From NCBI GenBank assembly GCA_023262125.1, contig JALRDT010000098.1, forward strand, positions 1 to 18,437: 18,437 nt of DNA, written 5' to 3'. Below are positions 10,267 through 18,372 of the stretch, one piece after another (the first letter of the stretch is position 1; each line of letters begins with the position of its first letter). Source of the stretch: Candidatus Nanopelagicaceae bacterium. Lineage in GTDB: Bacteria > Actinomycetota > Actinomycetes > Nanopelagicales > Nanopelagicaceae. Position numbers and translations under genes: made by a program. Under the pieces are notes generated by a model that saw only the letters and a program-made list of their open reading frames with translations, had not been told where the DNA came from and ran no database searches.

Positions 10267-10292
10267 CGAAAACTCCTAGCTTTTCTTAGATG

Positions 10293-10364
10293 TGGACGAT
10301 ACTGGGATCGAACCAGTGACCCCTTCCATGTCAAGGAAGTGCTCTACCGCTGAGCCAATCGTCC
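10293..10364 (-). tRNA. tRNA-Val (anticodon GAC)
   Basis: Full cloverleaf on the minus strand, 72 nt. The acceptor stem GGACGAT/ATCGTCC is perfectly paired; D arm GCTC/GAGC; anticodon stem CTTCC/GGAAG around loop TTGACAT, which gives anticodon GAC; T arm ACTGG/CCAGT with loop TTCGATC. Discriminator is A. The bases after it are CAT, so the 3' CCA is not encoded, unlike the two neighbouring tRNAs. It lies between the cupin gene and drrA. Confidence 0.96.
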
Positions 10365-10383
10365 GGGTCGGGGCAGGAACGAA

Positions 10384-10389
10384 ATAATA
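10384..10389 (-). promoter_or_regulatory. Possible -10 element (TATTAT) for tRNA-Val and drrAB
   Basis: TATTAT on the minus strand, 19 bp before the tRNA-Val 5' end and just past the cupin stop. It could give tRNA-Val (and the downstream drrAB) its own promoter with a leader of about 12 nt. No convincing -35 is seen, so read-through from the cupin promoter is equally possible. Confidence 0.3.
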
Positions 10390-10395
10390 TCCTAA

Positions 10396-10743
10396 TTAAT
10401 CGTGGCGACCGTAATCGTCCTCTAAGCGCTCAATGTCATCTTCGCCGAAGTAAGTACCGGTTTGAACTTCAATGAATAACATCGGTACTTTGCCACTATT
10501 ACCAATGCGATGTAGCTGATTTGCTTGAACAGTAACGGTATCGCCAGCTTCAATAGTGATGATCTTGTCATCAATTTGAACTTCTGCAGTTCCGTAAACA
10601 ACATACCAATGTTCGCTTCTAAATTTGTGACGTTGTAGTGAGAGACGTTTGCCTGGATCTACCCAGATTGATTTAACTTTATGAGTTGGAAGATCTTGAA
10701 GTACTTCGTAGCGACCCCAAGGTCGGTTCGGTCCATCTGTCAT
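10396..10743 (-). CDS. Stand-alone phosphomannose-isomerase-type cupin (type II PMI C-terminal domain)
   Basis: A 115-residue single-domain cupin matching the C-terminal isomerase domain of bifunctional ManC/type II phosphomannose isomerases. Diagnostic segments: RPWGRYEVL (7-15), the metal motif QRHKFRSEHWYVV (37-49, ligands Q37, H39, E44 and later H79 in NQLHRIGNS), GTAEV, and the C-terminal TGTYFGEDDIERLEDDYGR (95-113). Such proteins interconvert mannose-6-phosphate and fructose-6-phosphate, or are annotated merely as cupins. The nucleotidyltransferase half is absent. Supplying mannose for the PIM lipids made by the downstream pgsA-patA-pimA genes is a plausible inference. It sits between tRNA-Cys and tRNA-Val. 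ATG 10743 is preceded by TAAACT at 6 nt, and an AGGAG is 15 nt away, too far for a normal SD. Confidence 0.87.
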   Translation of the reverse strand: MTDGPNRPWGRYEVLQDLPTHKVKSIWVDPGKRLSLQRHKFRSEHWYVVYGTAEVQIDDKIITIEAGDTVTVQANQLHRIGNSGKVPMLFIEVQTGTYFGEDDIERLEDDYGRHD

Positions 10744-10749
10744 AGTTGA

Positions 10750-10755
10750 AGTTTA
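10750..10755 (-). promoter_or_regulatory. -10 element (TAAACT) for a leaderless cupin mRNA
   Basis: On the minus strand TAAACT is followed by six bases (TCAACT) and ATG at 10743, the same geometry as several other first genes in this window. It lies after the terminator-like hairpin, so the cupin can be transcribed apart from the tRNA-Gly/Cys unit. Confidence 0.5.
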
Positions 10756-10763
10756 TTTCTCCT

Positions 10764-10795
10764 AAAGAAAAAAGTATGTAGCCATTTTTACATAC
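10764..10795 (-). terminator. Terminator-like hairpin after tRNA-Cys
   Basis: Arms GTATGTA (10774-10780) and TACATAC (10789-10795) pair perfectly around an 8 nt loop. On the minus strand the hairpin is followed by TTTTTTCTTT. Its position, 8 bp beyond the encoded CCA of tRNA-Cys, fits an intrinsic terminator of the tRNA-Gly/tRNA-Cys transcript. The stem is AT-rich (two G-C pairs), so termination may be leaky. On the plus strand there is no U run after the hairpin. Confidence 0.5.
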
Positions 10796-10803
10796 CGAAA
10801 AAA

Positions 10804-10877
10804 TGGAGGTGGAAACGGGATTTGAACCCGTGTAGAGGGATTTGCAGTCCCTTGCCTCGCCTCTCGGCCATTCCACC
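10804..10877 (-). tRNA. tRNA-Cys (anticodon GCA)
   Basis: Minus-strand tRNA, 71 nt plus encoded CCA. Acceptor GGTGGAA/TTCCACC; D arm GCC/GGC with a 9 nt loop; anticodon stem AGGGA/TCCCT around CTGCAAA, giving GCA; T arm ACGGG/CCCGT with loop TTCAAAT. Discriminator U, as is universal for tRNA-Cys, then CCA at 10804-10806. It is 33 bp downstream of tRNA-Gly and probably in the same transcript. Confidence 0.96.
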
Positions 10878-10910
10878 AATGGTAAAAAATAAAAGTGCTT
10901 CAGAAATAAT

Positions 10911-10986
10911 TGGAGCGGACGACGGGGTTCGAACCCGCGACCTGAACCTTGGCAAGGTTCCGCGCTACCAACTGCGCTACGTCCGC
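10911..10986 (-). tRNA. tRNA-Gly (anticodon GCC)
   Basis: Minus-strand tRNA, 73 nt plus encoded CCA (10911-10913). Acceptor GCGGACG/CGTCCGC; D arm GCGC/GCGC; anticodon stem GAACC/GGTTC around TTGCCAA, giving GCC; T arm GCGGG/CCCGT with one G-U pair and loop TTCGAAC; discriminator U. First gene of the minus-strand tRNA cluster, divergent from pabB. Confidence 0.96.
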
Positions 10987-12787: not shown

Positions 12788-14785
12788 ATGTCTGAAATCT
12801 CCATAAAGGTTGATGGTCAAGCTAAAAGTATTGCTTCGGACCAAAAGCCAACCCATATTTTCGCTGACAACAAGGAAATCGTGGTCTGCCGAATAAATGG
12901 AGAGCTAAGAGATCTATGGACCGACTTAAAAAATGGGGATGAACTAGAAGGTGTTTCAATCTCTTCGCCAGATGGATTAAACGTTCTACGACATTCAACA
13001 GCCCACGTGATGGCGCAAGCAGTTCAACAAGTTTTCTCTCAGACACGTCTTGGTATTGGCCCGCCGATAAAAGATGGTTTTTATTATGACTTTGACCCGG
13101 AGCGTCCATTTAATCCTGATGACTTAGAGAAACTTGAAAGTGCGATGCGGAAAATCATCAAAGATGGCCAGCGTTTTCGACGTCGCGTCACTAATGAAGC
13201 AGATGCACTCAAGGAATTAGCGCACGAACCTTATAAGTGCGAACTTATTGGGATCAAAGCAAATCCAGATGATGAAGTAGATGAATCTTCAGTAGAAGTT
13301 GGTGGATCAGAACTAACTATTTATGACAATCTAGGCCGTGACGGACAGCCTGTTTGGTCAGATTTATGTCGCGGTCCGCATTTACCTTCCACGAAACATA
13401 TTCCAGCGTTTAAGTTGATGCGTACTGCAGCTGCATACTGGAGAGGCTCCGAGAAGAATCCAATGTTGCAGAGAATTTATGGAACGGCTTGGTCTTCCCA
13501 AGAAGAGTTACAGTCTTATTTAGATTTATTAGCAGAGGCAGAAAAACGTGATCATCGCCGTCTTGGAAATGAATTAGATCTATTTTCGTTTCCTGATGAA
13601 ATTGGATCAGGATTAGCTGTCTTTCACCCCAAAGGCGGGGTTATTCGTATGGCGATGGAGGATTACTCTAGAAAACGTCATACTGAAGAGGGTTACCAAT
13701 TTGTTTATTCACCTCATTTGACGAAATCAACTCTCTTTGAAGTATCTGGCCATTTGGATTGGTATTCAGAGGGTATGTATCCGCCAATGATTATGGATGA
13801 AGAACTCCATGCAGATGGCACAATCAAGAAACCTGGCCAGAAGTACTACATGAAGCCAATGAATTGTCCGATGCATATTTTGATTTACAAGTCGCGCGGT
13901 CGTTCCTATAGGGAGTTACCGCTTCGCGCATTTGAATTCGGCACAGTTTATCGATACGAAAAATCAGGTGTAGTGCATGGCTTAACTCGCGCCCGTGGAT
14001 TTACCCAAGACGATGCTCATATTTTCTGCACCAAGGAGCAGATGGCAAATGAATTAGATTCACTGCTTACCTTTGTACTTAACTTATTGCGTGATTATGG
14101 TTTGGAAGATTTCTATCTTGAACTTTCAACTAAGAATCCAGAGAAATATGTTGGTTCGGATGAAGATTGGGATGCAGCCACAGAAACGTTGAGAAAAGCC
14201 GCCGAAGCACAGAATCTAGAATTGGTAATGGACCCGGGTGGCGCCGCCTTTTATGGCCCAAAGATTTCAGTACAAGCAAAAGATGCGATTGGTCGCACTT
14301 GGCAGATGTCTACTATTCAAGTTGATTTCCAATTACCTCAACGATTTGAAATGGAATATCAGGCTAGTGATGGATCTCGTCAACGTCCGGTGATGATCCA
14401 CCGAGCACTTTTTGGTTCTATTGAAAGATTCTTCGGAGTTTTAACAGAACATTATGCGGGAGCCTTCCCACCTTGGTTAGCTCCAGTTCAAGTAATGGCA
14501 ATTCCAGTGGCTGATGCTTTCGCTCCGTATTTACAAGAGATTGTTTCAAAGATGCGCACTGAAGGAATTAGGGCAGAAATTGATTTATCTGATGATCGCA
14601 TGCAGAAGAAAGTTCGAAATGCGCAGATGGAGAAAATCCCTTTCATGTTAATTGCCGGAGAAGAAGATCAAGCAAACAGCGCTGTCTCTTTCCGTTTCCG
14701 AGATGGTTCTCAGAAGAACGGTATTCCAGTGGATCAAGCAATTTCTGAAATTCTGCAAACTATCATAGATCGCAAGCAGGTTTAA
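12788..14785 (+). CDS. thrS: Threonyl-tRNA synthetase
   Basis: Class II synthetase of 665 residues that charges tRNA-Thr in the cytosol. An N-terminal TGS-like domain spans about 1-62. The editing domain (about 64-225) has HSTAH with H69/H73 and CRGPH with C194/H198, the site that hydrolyses Ser-tRNA-Thr. The catalytic core has motif 1 around 283-310, motif 2 [15 protein letters not shown]...[17 protein letters not shown] (380-414), and motif 3 [20 protein letters not shown] (537-556). Zinc ligands by position are C360 (NCPMH), H411 (DDAHIF) and H538. The anticodon-binding domain fills about 565-665. All expected catalytic and editing residues are present. The first residues are slightly longer than the E. 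coli start. The TAA stop is directly followed by the ATG of the HIT gene. Confidence 0.97.
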
Positions 14786-15313
14786 ATGGAATATTTGGAG
14801 GGCGGCGTAGGTATGCCAGATGCTTGGCAACGCCTATGGGCTCCTCATCGCTTAGGTTATATTCGTGGTGAAAATAGACCTTTAGATTCAAATGATGTCC
14901 CGTGTCCGTTCTGCGAAATTCCAAAAAAAGAAGATCGTGATGGTTTGGTAGTTTTTCGTGGCAAAGAGGCTTATGTTGTCATGAATCTTTATCCTTACAA
15001 CCCTGGCCATCTATTAATTTGTGCTTATCGACATGTTTCTGATTTAACTGATTTGACTGATTCAGAACGAAATGAAATCTCATATTTAACTGCTCACGCA
15101 ATGAAGACTTTGCGCAATGTCTCTAATCCTGCTGGATTCAATTTAGGTATGAATCAAGGCGCGATAAGTGGTGCTGGAGTTGCCGCACATATCCATCAAC
15201 ATGTAGTGCCGCGTTGGTCTGGGGATGCGAATTTCATGCCAATAATCGGACAAACAAAAGTGCTACCACAATTATTAACAGATACCAGAGATGCTTTAGC
15301 CCAAGCTTGGTAA
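14786..15313 (+). CDS. HIT family hydrolase / AP4A-phosphorylase-like protein
   Basis: Histidine-triad nucleotide-binding protein of 175 residues. The triad HIHQHVV is at 135-141, with H137 the predicted nucleophile. C40/C43 in CPFCEIP form half of a zinc site, and NLYPYNPGHLLICAYRHVSDL (67-87) and FNLGMNQG (118-125) are core HIT strands. By family, it cleaves dinucleoside polyphosphates or nucleotide conjugates. Start: ATG 14786 directly follows the thrS stop. An internal ATG at 14813 lies behind a GGAGG, but the residues between (EGGVGMPDAWQRLW) contain the GVG-x-x-D-x-x-QRLW stretch that I recall from mycobacterial and streptomycete homologues, so the longer form is kept. The thrS-HIT-pgsA order is usual in actinobacteria; here an extra minus-strand gene interrupts it. 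Confidence 0.9.
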   Translation: MEYLEGGVGMPDAWQRLWAPHRLGYIRGENRPLDSNDVPCPFCEIPKKEDRDGLVVFRGKEAYVVMNLYPYNPGHLLICAYRHVSDLTDLTDSERNEISYLTAHAMKTLRNVSNPAGFNLGMNQGAISGAGVAAHIHQHVVPRWSGDANFMPIIGQTKVLPQLLTDTRDALAQAW

Positions 15314-15880
15314 TTGGTTTAGATACTTTTTTACAATATCAACACCTAGTTCGAATTCTGGATTATTAATCAAAACCGGAATGGCAGGGAAGAATATTCC
15401 AGAAGAAAATCCATCGGGTCCAGCTGCTTCTAGCTGCGCTAAGAACTCTTCGCGAAATTCTGAAACTAATTCAAAATGTTCGGGTTCAGCATCAATAATT
15501 TGGCCGGTTCGGTAATTATTTATTCTCATAGTTTCCAAATCAATCAGTGCGCATGGAGAGCCATCATCGTCATGCAAAACCAGATAAGGTGTAGCAACAT
15601 CATCTAGTAATCTCTTTGCAAGCATCACTGCATCATCAAAATCTTGTAGTCCTTCATCAAATCCTGTAACAACTAGAATTCTTGGCATAAGCAATTCATC
15701 ATAGGCATGCCATAACTCGATTGTGTTTTGGTCTAGTCCAGAACTAGCATTTATAACAAATATCGCAGCAGTTATTTCAGCTTCGACTTCCTTGGAAACG
15801 CTCGCGCTCAATGCCTGTGAAAGTGCAGTAGTGGCAGCACTTGGGTGACCATATAAGCGCCAGTGGTTTCCGTTTTCCAT
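15296..15880 (-). CDS. Degenerate EF-G2-like G-domain protein (putative pseudo-GTPase)
   Basis: 194 residues that read as a shrunken N-terminal GTPase domain of an actinobacterial EF-G-like protein (EF-G2). The P-loop position reads GHPSAATTAL (11-20), where a GTPase has G/A-H-x-x-A-G-K-T-T: the glycine and invariant lysine are lost. After a large gap (no switch I, no DTPGY G3) the rest aligns by eye: ITAAIFVINASSGLDQNTIELW (36-57), then MPRILVVTGFD, where NKxD has become TGFD (72-75), then DFDDAV, ALIDLETMRINNY, AEPEHFELVSEFREEFL and GIFFPAIPVL. So GTP binding is probably lost, while the fold may persist. It is not a recent pseudogene: the frame is intact. Function unknown; a ribosome or translation link is only inferred. 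It overlaps the HIT gene by 18 bp at the 3' end and is divergent from pgsA. The ATG at 15880 fits a leaderless -10. Confidence 0.68.
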   Translation of the reverse strand: MENGNHWRLYGHPSAATTALSQALSASVSKEVEAEITAAIFVINASSGLDQNTIELWHAYDELLMPRILVVTGFDEGLQDFDDAVMLAKRLLDDVATPYLVLHDDDGSPCALIDLETMRINNYRTGQIIDAEPEHFELVSEFREEFLAQLEAAGPDGFSSGIFFPAIPVLINNPEFELGVDIVKKYLNQLPSLG

Positions 15881-15887
15881 AGGCGAA

Positions 15888-15893
15888 AGCCTA
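15888..15893 (-). promoter_or_regulatory. -10 element (TAGGCT) for the EF-G2-like gene
   Basis: TAGGCT on the minus strand, seven bases before ATG 15880. It overlaps the plus-strand hexamer of pgsA by two bases in a 23 bp divergent gap. Confidence 0.4.
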
Positions 15894-15897
15894 CGAT
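15892..15897 (+). promoter_or_regulatory. -10 element (TACGAT) for leaderless pgsA mRNA
   Basis: TACGAT followed by six bases (GTACCT) and GTG at 15904. The spacing supports GTG 15904 rather than the in-frame ATG at 15919 as the start. Confidence 0.45.
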
Positions 15898-15903
15898 GTA
15901 CCT

Positions 15904-16500
15904 GTGATTAGTGCGCGAATGAAACCTTCTGTAGTCAAAATGATTACGCCATTCTGTCGAGGATTACTCAAACTGGGTGTTACCCCTGACATGATGACCA
16001 TATTCGGCACTTTCATCGTTGTACTTGGTTCATGGTTGCTACTGGCGCAAGGAAAATTAGTTGCAGCGCTTTTTGTAATTGGTTTGGCGCTACTTACTGA
16101 TTTGCTTGACGGAACGATGGCGCGAATTTCCGAACAAGGAGCAAGTAAATGGGGCAACTTTCTTGACTCCACATTAGATCGAATTTCTGATGCTGCGGTT
16201 TTATTAGGCCTTTCCTATTATTTATACTCACAAGGCGACGAGCTTTTTATCGTTTGCATGGTCACGGTTGCGGTTTCATCAATAGTTCCATATGCAAGAG
16301 CCAAAGCTGAAAGCTTGAATATCGAATGTAAGGGTGGTTTTGCAGAGCGAACTGAGAGACTAGTAATGCTTGCCTTCTTTGGAGTCTTACATCTATTTGG
16401 ATTTAGTTGGGCGCTCGATGTAGGAATCTGGATACTTCTTATTCTCTCTATTTTCACGATTTACCAACGCATGGCAATAGTTTGGAGAGCAACTAGGTGA
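15904..16500 (+). CDS. pgsA: CDP-alcohol phosphatidyltransferase (phosphatidylinositol phosphate synthase type)
   Basis: Membrane enzyme of 198 residues with about six hydrophobic segments. It carries the full CDP-alcohol phosphotransferase motif D-x2-D-G-x2-A-R-x8-9-G-x3-D-x3-D: D66, D69-G70, A73-R74, G84, D88, D92. Those aspartates bind two metal ions, and the last is the catalytic base. In actinobacteria the protein at this locus joins CDP-diacylglycerol to inositol-3-phosphate, making phosphatidylinositol phosphate, the base of PIM lipids. That role is inferred from the neighbouring acyltransferase and mannosyltransferase. The alternative, phosphatidylglycerophosphate synthase, is less likely here. 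GTG start is favoured by the -10 position. The stop TGA overlaps the next GTG by 4 bp. Confidence 0.9.
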   Translation: MISARMKPSVVKMITPFCRGLLKLGVTPDMMTIFGTFIVVLGSWLLLAQGKLVAALFVIGLALLTDLLDGTMARISEQGASKWGNFLDSTLDRISDAAVLLGLSYYLYSQGDELFIVCMVTVAVSSIVPYARAKAESLNIECKGGFAERTERLVMLAFFGVLHLFGFSWALDVGIWILLILSIFTIYQRMAIVWRATR

Positions 16501-17312
16501 GTGCATACGCCTATTTAATAGGTTGGCGCTTAGTTCGTCTTTTGCCAGAAAAATTGGCATACACAATATTTCAAGCAATTGGGGATTATGTTTATGCAAA
16601 GAATGGCAAAAGTATCAAGCGATTACGAAGCAATATGTCATTAGTTTCAAATCTTGACGGAGAGGCCCTCGAGATTCTGACAAAAGATGCTATGCGCTCA
16701 TATATGCGCTATTGGTGTGACACATTTAGATTGCCTGATTGGAGTAAAGAAAAAATAATTCGCAATGTCGAATTAGTCAATTCAGAGATTCTCACAAACC
16801 CTTTAGATAAAGGCCAGGGAGTGGTTGTTGCGTTACCACACTCCGGCAACTGGGATCATGCCGCAGCTTATTTTCTAGAGTGTGGATATAAAGCAGTTAC
16901 GGTTGCTGAAAGATTAAAGCCGGAAAAAGTATTTCAAGCTTTCCTGAAGTATCGAGAAAAAATAGGGTTAGAAGTTCTCTCAACTGATATGCGCACTCTT
17001 CCCTCTTTGGTCGAACGAGCAAAAAACGGATATATTGTTGCGCTAGTAGCAGATAGAGATTTAAGTAGCAGTGGACAAGAAGTTAATTTTTTTGGGAAAG
17101 TTGCCAAAATGCCTGTCGGACCTGTTGCAATTGCTAAAAAAGCTGACGTGGATTTAGTCGGTGCATTTATCGAATATACGCCTACTGCAATTCGGATTCA
17201 TTTTGAAAAATTGAATCTCTCTGTTCAATCCCAAGCAGACTTTTTTGAAAGGCAAATAAAGCGTACTCCTGTGGATTGGCACATGCTTCAGAGGATTTGG
17301 ATTAATGATTGA
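16497..17312 (+). CDS. patA: LpxL/HtrB-type acyltransferase (phosphatidylinositol mannoside acyltransferase)
   Basis: A 271-residue lysophospholipid-type acyltransferase. The catalytic H-x4-D is LPHSGNWDHAAAY with H115 and D120, in the same sequence context as actinobacterial PatA. Other family traits: an N-terminal hydrophobic/amphipathic segment (YAYLIGWRLVRLLPEKLAYTIF), MRSYMRYWCDTFRLP (66-80) before the active site, GYIVALVADRDLSSSGQEVNFFG (conserved R-D...G..V.FFG strand that shapes the acyl pocket) and FMPVGPVAIAKK-like KMPVGPVAIAKKA. By family it acylates a mannose of PIM at the cytosolic face of the membrane. It is translationally coupled to pgsA (GTGA overlap) and overlaps pimA by 8 bp. 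Slightly shorter than the approximately 300-residue mycobacterial enzyme. Confidence 0.88.
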   Translation: MSAYAYLIGWRLVRLLPEKLAYTIFQAIGDYVYAKNGKSIKRLRSNMSLVSNLDGEALEILTKDAMRSYMRYWCDTFRLPDWSKEKIIRNVELVNSEILTNPLDKGQGVVVALPHSGNWDHAAAYFLECGYKAVTVAERLKPEKVFQAFLKYREKIGLEVLSTDMRTLPSLVERAKNGYIVALVADRDLSSSGQEVNFFGKVAKMPVGPVAIAKKADVDLVGAFIEYTPTAIRIHFEKLNLSVQSQADFFERQIKRTPVDWHMLQRIWIND

Positions 17313-18372
17313 AAAGCCCTTAAACATTGGAATTGTTTGTCCATATGGTTGGGATGCACCGGGTGGAGTACAGGCCCACATCTCGGATTTAAGACAATTT
17401 TTAGTCAGCAAAGGACATAAAGTTTCAGTTCTCGCTCCAACAGCAGATGAACAATCGTTGCCGGAATGGGTAGTAGATGCTGGCAAACCCTTGGCAATTC
17501 CATATAACGGCGCAGTTGCTCGAGTACTTTTTGGACCAATTGCGTTTGCAAAAGTTAAGCAATGGATATCTGAGAATGAATTTGATCTACTTCATTTGCA
17601 TGAGCCAGCTATTCCAAGCATCTCGCTACTTGCATGTTGGGCGGCGGAAGGACCGATGGTGGGAACTTTCCATGTATCTGCCAAGAAGCAGAAAGCTAGC
17701 TTTGCAATTGTGCCAATTCTCGAACCAGTAATTGAAAAATTATCAGCACGCATTGCGGTAAGTGAAGCAGCCCGAGAGACATTAAAAGCTCATTTAGAAA
17801 CTGACGCAGTGGTAATTCCAAATGGAATCTATACAAAAAAAATGCTTGGAAAAGTTCGTAGGGAATGGAGCGGTGAAACGCTTGGGTTTATGGGACGTTT
17901 TAACGAACCTAGAAAAGGCTTGAAAGTACTTATTGATGCACTTCCTATTATCAGTAGGTTTATGCCTAATGTCAGAGTATTAGTAGCAGGCCCAGGTAAC
18001 CCTGAGGAATTCTTAGAGGATATCAATCCACAATTGCGAAATCGAATTGAATTTCTTGGCAAGTTAAGTGAAGAAGAGAAGGCTGATTTCATGACTTCGG
18101 TCGGTGCATACATTGGCCCAAATACCGGTGGTGAATCATTTGGAATTATTTTGGCTGAAGCTTTGGCCGGAGGTGCGGCGGTTGTCGCATCTGATATCCC
18201 CGCCTTCGAAGCAGTATTAGAAAATGGAAAGTATGGAAAGCTTTTTCAATCTGAAGATTCGACAGATCTGGCAAAGGTAGTAATTGAATTACTAAGAGAT
18301 AGAAAGTCAAGAGATCAAATGGCGCTTTCTGGTCAGCTATATGCGCAGAAATTTGATTGGGAAGTTGTTTGA
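17305..18372 (+). CDS. pimA: Phosphatidyl-myo-inositol mannosyltransferase (GT4)
   Basis: GDP-mannose-dependent GT-B glycosyltransferase that adds the first mannose to phosphatidylinositol. The N-terminal Rossmann domain has VCPYGWDAPGGVQ (11-23, the glycine loop), LHLHEPAIPS (96-105) and GTFHVSA with H123. The C-terminal domain has MGRFNEPRKGL with R198 and K204 (donor phosphate binding) and GGESFGIILAEALAGG (275-290), the EX7E motif with E277 and E285. The 355 residues are about 20 fewer than mycobacterial PimA. The frame stops right after KFDWEVV, where family members continue with an A..IM.VYE-type helix, so the tail seems lost or interrupted (see findings on the window's 3' edge). ATG 17305 has an AGAGGA purine run 9 nt upstream inside patA. 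It is last in the pgsA-patA-pimA operon. Confidence 0.9.
   Translation: MIEKPLNIGIVCPYGWDAPGGVQAHISDLRQFLVSKGHKVSVLAPTADEQSLPEWVVDAGKPLAIPYNGAVARVLFGPIAFAKVKQWISENEFDLLHLHEPAIPSISLLACWAAEGPMVGTFHVSAKKQKASFAIVPILEPVIEKLSARIAVSEAARETLKAHLETDAVVIPNGIYTKKMLGKVRREWSGETLGFMGRFNEPRKGLKVLIDALPIISRFMPNVRVLVAGPGNPEEFLEDINPQLRNRIEFLGKLSEEEKADFMTSVGAYIGPNTGGESFGIILAEALAGGAAVVASDIPAFEAVLENGKYGKLFQSEDSTDLAKVVIELLRDRKSRDQMALSGQLYAQKFDWEVV

Follow-up and report, generated by a model that had tools for sequence, protein, structure and literature searches.

An actinobacterial EF-G2 reduced in place to a stand-alone predicted pseudoGTPase beside pgsA

Introduction

EF-G2 is a paralogue of EF-G whose purpose is unclear, and the small-genome bacteria of the order sampled in this work are abundant in freshwater. 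The negatively charged region of G' that contacts L7/L12 is described, in passages of one report, as conserved in EFG II (PMC3150367). Passages of another give E221, E225 and E228 of Mycobacterium tuberculosis EF-G1 as L7/L12 contacts that are mostly conserved in EF-G2, and state that conservation of G' as a whole is not very high between EF-Gs and M. tuberculosis EF-G2 (PMC8446442). PDB entry 9k0z carries the title of an EF-G2 bound 70S ribosome complex of M. smegmatis. Among the literature matches listed, none dealt with this M. smegmatis EF-G2-ribosome structure or with EF-G2 in Nanopelagicales. PseudoGTPases are already known and include CENP-M, as described in passages of PMC10211241. A bacterial stand-alone pseudoGTPase derived from a translational GTPase was found in none of the literature matches listed, and the matched passages of PMC4342817 mention none.

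The window analysed here is a whole stretch of 18,437 nucleotides from a Candidatus Nanopelagicaceae bacterium (contig JALRDT010000098.1). An earlier note had read one of its genes, here called pGTP, as a stand-alone pseudo-GTPase derived from the G domain of EF-G2 and inserted between two genes that are normally adjacent. Position, orientation and homology make the gene almost certainly the counterpart of actinobacterial EF-G2. In the sampled order EF-G2 has shrunk in place to its G domain, switch I, switch II and the nucleotide motifs have been lost, and the remnant is maintained by selection.

The gene and its neighbours

The pGTP coding sequence (15296..15880, minus strand) runs from an ATG at 15880 to a stop codon ending at 15296 and encodes 194 aa; its assignment as an EF-G2 reduced in situ combines profile, homologue and model evidence. 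The product is acidic, with a net charge of -22 and a pI of 4.2. Convergent with it lies a gene for a HIT-domain protein (14786..15313, plus strand; PF01230), of which, by the coordinates, 18 bp overlap the 3' end of pGTP. On the other side, and divergent from pGTP, lies a pgsA-like CDP-alcohol phosphatidyltransferase gene (15904..16500, plus; PF01066), followed in the same operon by an LpxL-type acyltransferase (16497..17312, plus; PF03279) and a glycosyltransferase (17305..18372, plus; PF13439/PF13692) that we take to be PimA-like. Ahead of HIT lies a threonyl-tRNA synthetase gene (thrS; 12788..14785, plus), named by reading the sequence, and synteny around the slot is conserved. Farther off in the window, tRNA genes for Val(gac), Cys(gca) and Gly(gcc) are grouped at 10292-10986 on the minus strand, and an ORF at 330-2036, also minus, appears to resemble a fusion of a DnaQ-type exonuclease and a GIY-YIG/UvrC-like part.

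Homology, predicted fold and nucleotide motifs

A homologue search with pGTP returned 686 proteins at E<=1e-3, and nearly all of the 120 listed are about 194 aa long, with 74-99% identity. Residues 38-147 match the NCBIfam model of EF-G2 (NF009377, fusA2) with an E-value of 1.1e-14; the score, 53.8 bits, lies far below the EF-G2 whole-protein threshold of 890 bits. Similarly, the Pfam GTP_EFTU model (PF00009) gave 18.8 bits, under its gathering score of 26.5. No named family reached its cut-off in the Pfam and NCBIfam searches, which agrees with the earlier remark that no described family fits. The nearest sequences with a solved structure are those of EF-G and EF-G2. The predicted structure of pGTP is an ordinary globular EF-G-type G domain with a G' insert, and the 194-aa model spans the G domain only of the five-domain (I-V) EF-G2 architecture. 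The EF-G2 origin that had been proposed is thus borne out by the NF009377 match, the common slot and the EF-G-type fold in the model, with no different fold predicted. This fold match speaks for the origin of pGTP and not for its function, and the lack of other folds in the VIA lists does not count as evidence.

The P-loop (G1) is represented by the relic GHPSAATT (residues 11-18; 15827..15850, minus), in which, by sequence and EF-G2 alignment, the lysine is lost. In place of the [NT]KxD of EF-G2, the G4 relic reads TGFD (residues 72-75; 15656..15667, minus). Among 95 aligned relatives, the G1 pattern [AG]xxxxGK[ST] and the G3 pattern DxPG were found in none, and the G4 pattern [NT]Kx[DE] in a single one (L012, with TKIE). 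As controls, 31/31 full-length EF-G2 (L025-L054 and L085) and 3/3 canonical EF-G contained these G1 and G3 patterns, and T[KH]x[DE] stood at G4 in 27 of the 31. A narrower motif run on 30 more loci (L055-L084, 8 of them from genomes already in L001-L012) again gave zeros for the nucleotide motifs; its G1 pattern missed 3/3 canonical EF-G, whose P-loop begins with A. The 29 EF-G2 of that run had been selected partly by a motif adjoining the P-loop, which left out 2 of the 31. A contracted GK[ST] P-loop relic occurs in 18 of 48 non-redundant relatives (L103, L089, L011 and their kin). The description of a GTPase shell devoid of nucleotide motifs therefore stands, and no short homologue with an intact GKT plus NKxD turned up among the 95 aligned. 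A GTPase fold in the model combined with lost canonical nucleotide motifs corresponds to the descriptive criterion of a pseudoGTPase. pGTP is accordingly classed as a pseudoGTPase predicted to be nucleotide-free, and we infer the absence of nucleotide binding from the motifs.

Reduction in the HIT/pgsA slot

In 12 loci from related genomes (L001-L012), the order was HIT, pGTP on the opposite strand, pgsA, LpxL-like and PimA-like genes; thrS was visible ahead of HIT in 11 of them, the stretch of L004 ending first. The slot between HIT and pgsA, with pGTP on the opposite strand, was found in 12/12 of these loci and in 16/16 of a further set (L089-L104), as expected of same-position orthologues. 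In a sample of the class, EF-G2 was above cut-off in 95/148 genomes. Thirty of these EF-G2 loci, taken with flanks of up to 1.5 kb, had pgsA in 24 cases, HIT in 11 and at least one of the two in 27; where both neighbours were in reach, EF-G2 lay between them on the opposite strand (8/8). In a second order, pgsA adjoined full-length EF-G2 in 9/9 loci, and the HIT/pgsA arrangement held in the 7/7 with both neighbours. Since full-length EF-G2 occupies the same slot elsewhere, pGTP is an EF-G2 that was reduced where it stood. The suggestion that pGTP had been inserted between normally adjacent HIT and pgsA genes is ruled out by these same loci, in which EF-G2 fills the position.

The order sample comprised 151 genomes of the order of G006, which was equated with that of the window by homology. 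The family profile matched 145 of them. For 5 of the 6 genomes lacking a match, pgsA was not matched at E<=1e-15 either, in keeping with incomplete assemblies; in the sixth the start of the pGTP gene was present at the edge of the retrieved stretch. Full-length EF-G2 exceeded the cut-off in 1/151 genomes (G276; locus L085), in a screen at E<=1e-160 that fragments would escape. This gene has intact G1, G3 and G4 motifs, and the pGTP-like core LVLHADDGSPTALINL is already present in it. The other matches, apart from a longer form, were short forms or contig-end fragments as judged by the reported frames; sequences were read from 50 of those genomes (L001-L012, 22 non-duplicate loci of L055-L084, and L089-L104).

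The longer form, of 323-329 aa, occurs in 3 genomes of the order (G181, G206 and G254). It lacks G1, G3 and G4, its G' is longer, and it has an additional region at the C-terminus. Its loci are L086 2721-3689, L087 3941-4927 and L088 3541-4509, and its proteins P0241-P0259. Of 20 homologues found in the database, 18 were 316-332 aa long and covered end to end, so that this form is, on sequence grounds, a second stable EF-G2-derived pseudoGTPase family. For its C-terminus hhalign weakly favoured domain V (nominal E 0.018, probability 2.5%), and Pfam gave no EFG_C match on this form. The model (pLDDT 59) predicts a C-terminus of beta-alpha-beta-beta-alpha-beta order. With presumed boundaries for EF-G domains III and V, the VIA rows reaching this C-terminus fell mostly in the domain III region, at an rmsd of 10-13, and one in the domain V region. 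The region may be ferredoxin-like and correspond to domain III or domain V of EF-G.

None of the 12 genomes of L001-L012 had an EF-G2 above cut-off. A 701-aa EF-G-type match with an adjoining second GTPase match was found in 5 of them, the others having partial matches only. The second GTPase, presumably EF-Tu, is 400-406 aa long in four genomes and contig-cut in one. Judged by the 701-aa matches in 5/12, canonical EF-G remains in these genomes.

Number of origins

The second order is that of G333, G149 and G309, and none of the 151 first-order genomes is in its samples. Twenty of its 30 sampled genomes matched the profile and 10 did not. The matches comprised 12 frames of >700 aa, 7 reduced genes (open frames of 262-391 aa) and 1 contig-cut gene (G341) with G1 and G3 intact. 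The reduced genes (L106, L107, L110 and L119-L122) occupy this slot as well and are without G1 and G3; L110 keeps TKLD at G4 and has a P-loop-like GSAGSGRSS in which K is replaced by R. L108 (G364) resembles them and has a sub-threshold match to domain II. The degenerate genes in the EF-G2 slot at L106, L107, L108, L110 and L119-L122 (about 260-410 aa) are absent from the G006 order sample.

In the tree, whose bootstrap had not settled, pGTP formed one group at 91/89, and L107 and L108 lay inside full-length EF-G2 under starred branches. L106 fell within pGTP in a first tree and, with fuller sampling, grouped with L119-L121; thirteen rows of the first tree were left out of the second. None of three groupings was rejected by the AU test: one of every degenerate form (p 0.287), one of pGTP and the 323-aa forms (p 0.372), and the latter plus L085 (p 0.364). 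The case for repeated loss is that the second order has both full-length and reduced genes and that the leftover domains differ. These sequences suggest that EF-G2 was reduced repeatedly, the AU test being compatible with a single degenerate clade too (p 0.287).

Selection and conservation

The NG86 dN/dS ratio of pGTP was 0.018-0.080, with a median of 0.067, in 6 usable pairs; saturated pairs were left out (one for pGTP, L003-L004), the window-L001 pair has a dS of 2.08, near saturation, and three pairs share L006. The medians of the neighbours were 0.070 for pgsA (7 pairs), 0.044 for HIT (6), 0.040 for the LpxL-like gene (6), 0.028 for thrS (6) and 0.026 for the PimA-like gene (7). The values for pGTP lie far below 1 and speak for purifying selection, the outcome that the earlier reading of a new function called for.

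In 48 non-redundant rows, the information per column was lowest of eight segments in the P-loop relic (2.04 bits) and peaked in the G' strands, residues 98-124 (3.39 bits). The next-highest segments were 76-97 (3.21), helix 133-153 (3.07) and 154-170 (3.06 bits). The G' strand stretch TPYLVLHDDDGSPCALIDL (residues 97-115; 15536..15592, minus) lies within this most conserved segment by information content. The acidic helix (residues 133-153; 15422..15484, minus), a helix in the model, is equivalent by alignment to EF-G helix A of G'; its net charge is -5 in the window and on average -3.6 in the 48 relatives. When the reduced forms are compared as six groups, 5 or 6 of the groups agree at 37 positions, of which 14 fall within residues 98-153; agreement in 5-6 of the 6 extends to the motifs DFD[DE] and [DE]-x-[DE]-H where helix A begins. 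Many of the positions belong to the hydrophobic core, so the pattern may reflect the fold; agreement across the reduced forms is not confined to G'.

Promoter region shared with pgsA

The ATG of pGTP and the GTG of pgsA are 23 bp apart (15881-15903). A -10-like box of leaderless type, TAGGCT, lies 7 nt ahead of the pGTP ATG (15888..15893, minus; read from the sequence). Another, TACGAT, lies 6 nt ahead of the pgsA GTG at 15904 (15892..15897, plus) and is marked by conservation of the nonamer GCCTACGAT. The two boxes overlap by TA. With its intact frame and this promoter-like box, pGTP fits the earlier description of an intact gene with its own promoter. Of 29 short-form loci, 25 contain the nonamer GCCTACGAT and 28 have, ahead of pgsA, a -10-like box with leaderless spacing. 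At 4-9 nt ahead of the chosen start, a TAnnnT box was found in 32/32 reduced genes and not in full-length L085; this loose pattern was counted without a shuffled control, and the spacing is partly circular because several start codons were placed by the analyst, which leaves the GCCTACGAT count unaffected. As a regulon motif, CATCGTAGGC was rejected, with 2 copies in G006 and 4 in G012, against 0 and 3 for the reversed control. Because the -10 boxes overlap, RNA polymerase could presumably occupy only one promoter at a time. Overlapping leaderless-type promoter boxes probably link the supply of pGTP to the pgsA lipid operon.

Proposed function and alternatives

It is proposed that pGTP is a binding protein that works without nucleotide and whose working surface would be the G' face that it has kept, made up of strands 98-124 and the acidic helix at 133-153. 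The G' face contacts L7/L12 in EF-G, so that pGTP would most likely dock on the L7/L12 (bL12) stalk of the ribosome, where it could compete with translational GTPases or modulate their recruitment. The two promoters with overlapping -10 boxes would couple its supply to the pgsA lipid operon in a mutually exclusive manner. This reading, of a G'-face binding protein most likely on the stalk, is tentative and has somewhat less than an even chance. Counter to stalk docking, the alignment shows that pGTP has lost the outer G', some 25 aa that follow helix A. In the window, A148 and A152 align with the L12-contact glutamates, whose placement on pGTP assumes E. coli numbering; acids stand at residues 148, 151 and 152 in 65%, 73% and 67% of the 48 non-redundant relatives. 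The stalk-contact acids are thus only partly retained. Also, G' is conserved in full-length EF-G2 too and thus need not mark a site specific to pGTP. The wider scenario, in which a translational GTPase was converted in place, probably more than once, to a GTP-free stalk adaptor or brake wired against the phosphatidylinositol operon, is doubtful.

The main rival takes pGTP off the ribosome and gives it a scaffolding or regulatory role in the lipid operon of PI/PIM type (pgsA, LpxL-like and PimA-like genes). The pgsA slot is kept in the reduced forms examined (12/12, 16/16 and 3/3) and in 8/8 outside the order (three of them, L106, L119 and L122, by ORF positions), the -10 boxes overlap with those of pgsA in 25/29 loci, and full-length EF-G2 already adjoins pgsA in 24/30 class-sample and 9/9 second-order loci. 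However, common promoters need not mean a common function, such a box was not found at the full-length L085 of the same order, and the model is that of an ordinary globular G domain; a lipid-operon role is considered unlikely. Chances are slimmer still that pGTP remains a switch, with a rebuilt pocket for residual or unconventional binding of nucleotide or another ligand. The persistence of the contracted GK[ST] relic in 18/48 non-redundant relatives and the TKIE kept at G4 in L012 would suit such a switch, but [AG]xxxxGK[ST] and DxPG occur in 0/95 relatives, and the N-terminal relic is the least conserved segment (2.04 bits), the opposite of what a pocket would lead one to expect.

The convergent overlap with HIT and the divergent overlap of promoter boxes with pgsA would also be expected if the ORF were kept mainly for effects in cis, by antisense transcription against pgsA or HIT. 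This is very improbable for a frame with a dN/dS of 0.018-0.080 (6 usable pairs) whose relatives still align at similar length down to 34% identity. That pGTP is a pseudogene in decay is hardly credible. Domains and catalytic motifs have been lost, and one internal TAA was reported in 5/148 matches (G126, G247, G248, G265 and G277), representing either real breaks or assembly errors; yet the family is present in 145/151 sampled genomes of the order, and the low dN/dS (median 0.067) excludes decay for the lineages compared.

An EF-G2 shed to its G-domain shell under strong selection amounts to a natural deletion experiment. As the shell alone is retained, whatever function these cells still need can do without GTP, domain IV and translocation, and the reduction of EF-G2 draws attention to the G' face. 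The bacterial case is that of a whole translational GTPase turned into a stand-alone pseudoGTPase nearly throughout the sampled order, while full-length and longer degenerate forms persist in the pGTP slot. If the stalk adaptor or brake reading were true, it would link ribosome engagement to membrane-lipid synthesis in freshwater actinobacteria, and the lineage would have discarded the motor and kept the docking face.

Comparison with known systems

Actinobacterial EF-G2 (EFG II; NF009377, fusA2) has its slot, orientation and G-domain fold in common with pGTP, as well as the G' signature DFD[DE], DDG, DYS and PEH. Unlike EF-G2, pGTP lacks the G1, G3 and G4 motifs, the switches and domains II-V. 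The 323-aa form (L086-L088) shares with pGTP the slot and the absence of G1, G3 and G4, and differs in its longer G' and additional C-terminal region. Among eukaryotic pseudoGTPases, those of the CENP-M type, as described in passages of PMC10211241, have a GTPase-type fold without working nucleotide motifs that serves as a protein-binding part, as is likewise proposed for pGTP; unlike that of eukaryotic CENP-M, the ancestor of pGTP is a bacterial translational GTPase. Septin pseudoGTPases (PMC10731463) are a further instance in which a GTPase has degenerated to a conserved pseudoGTPase, as in pGTP, although septins, unlike pGTP, are a polymerising eukaryotic cytoskeletal family.
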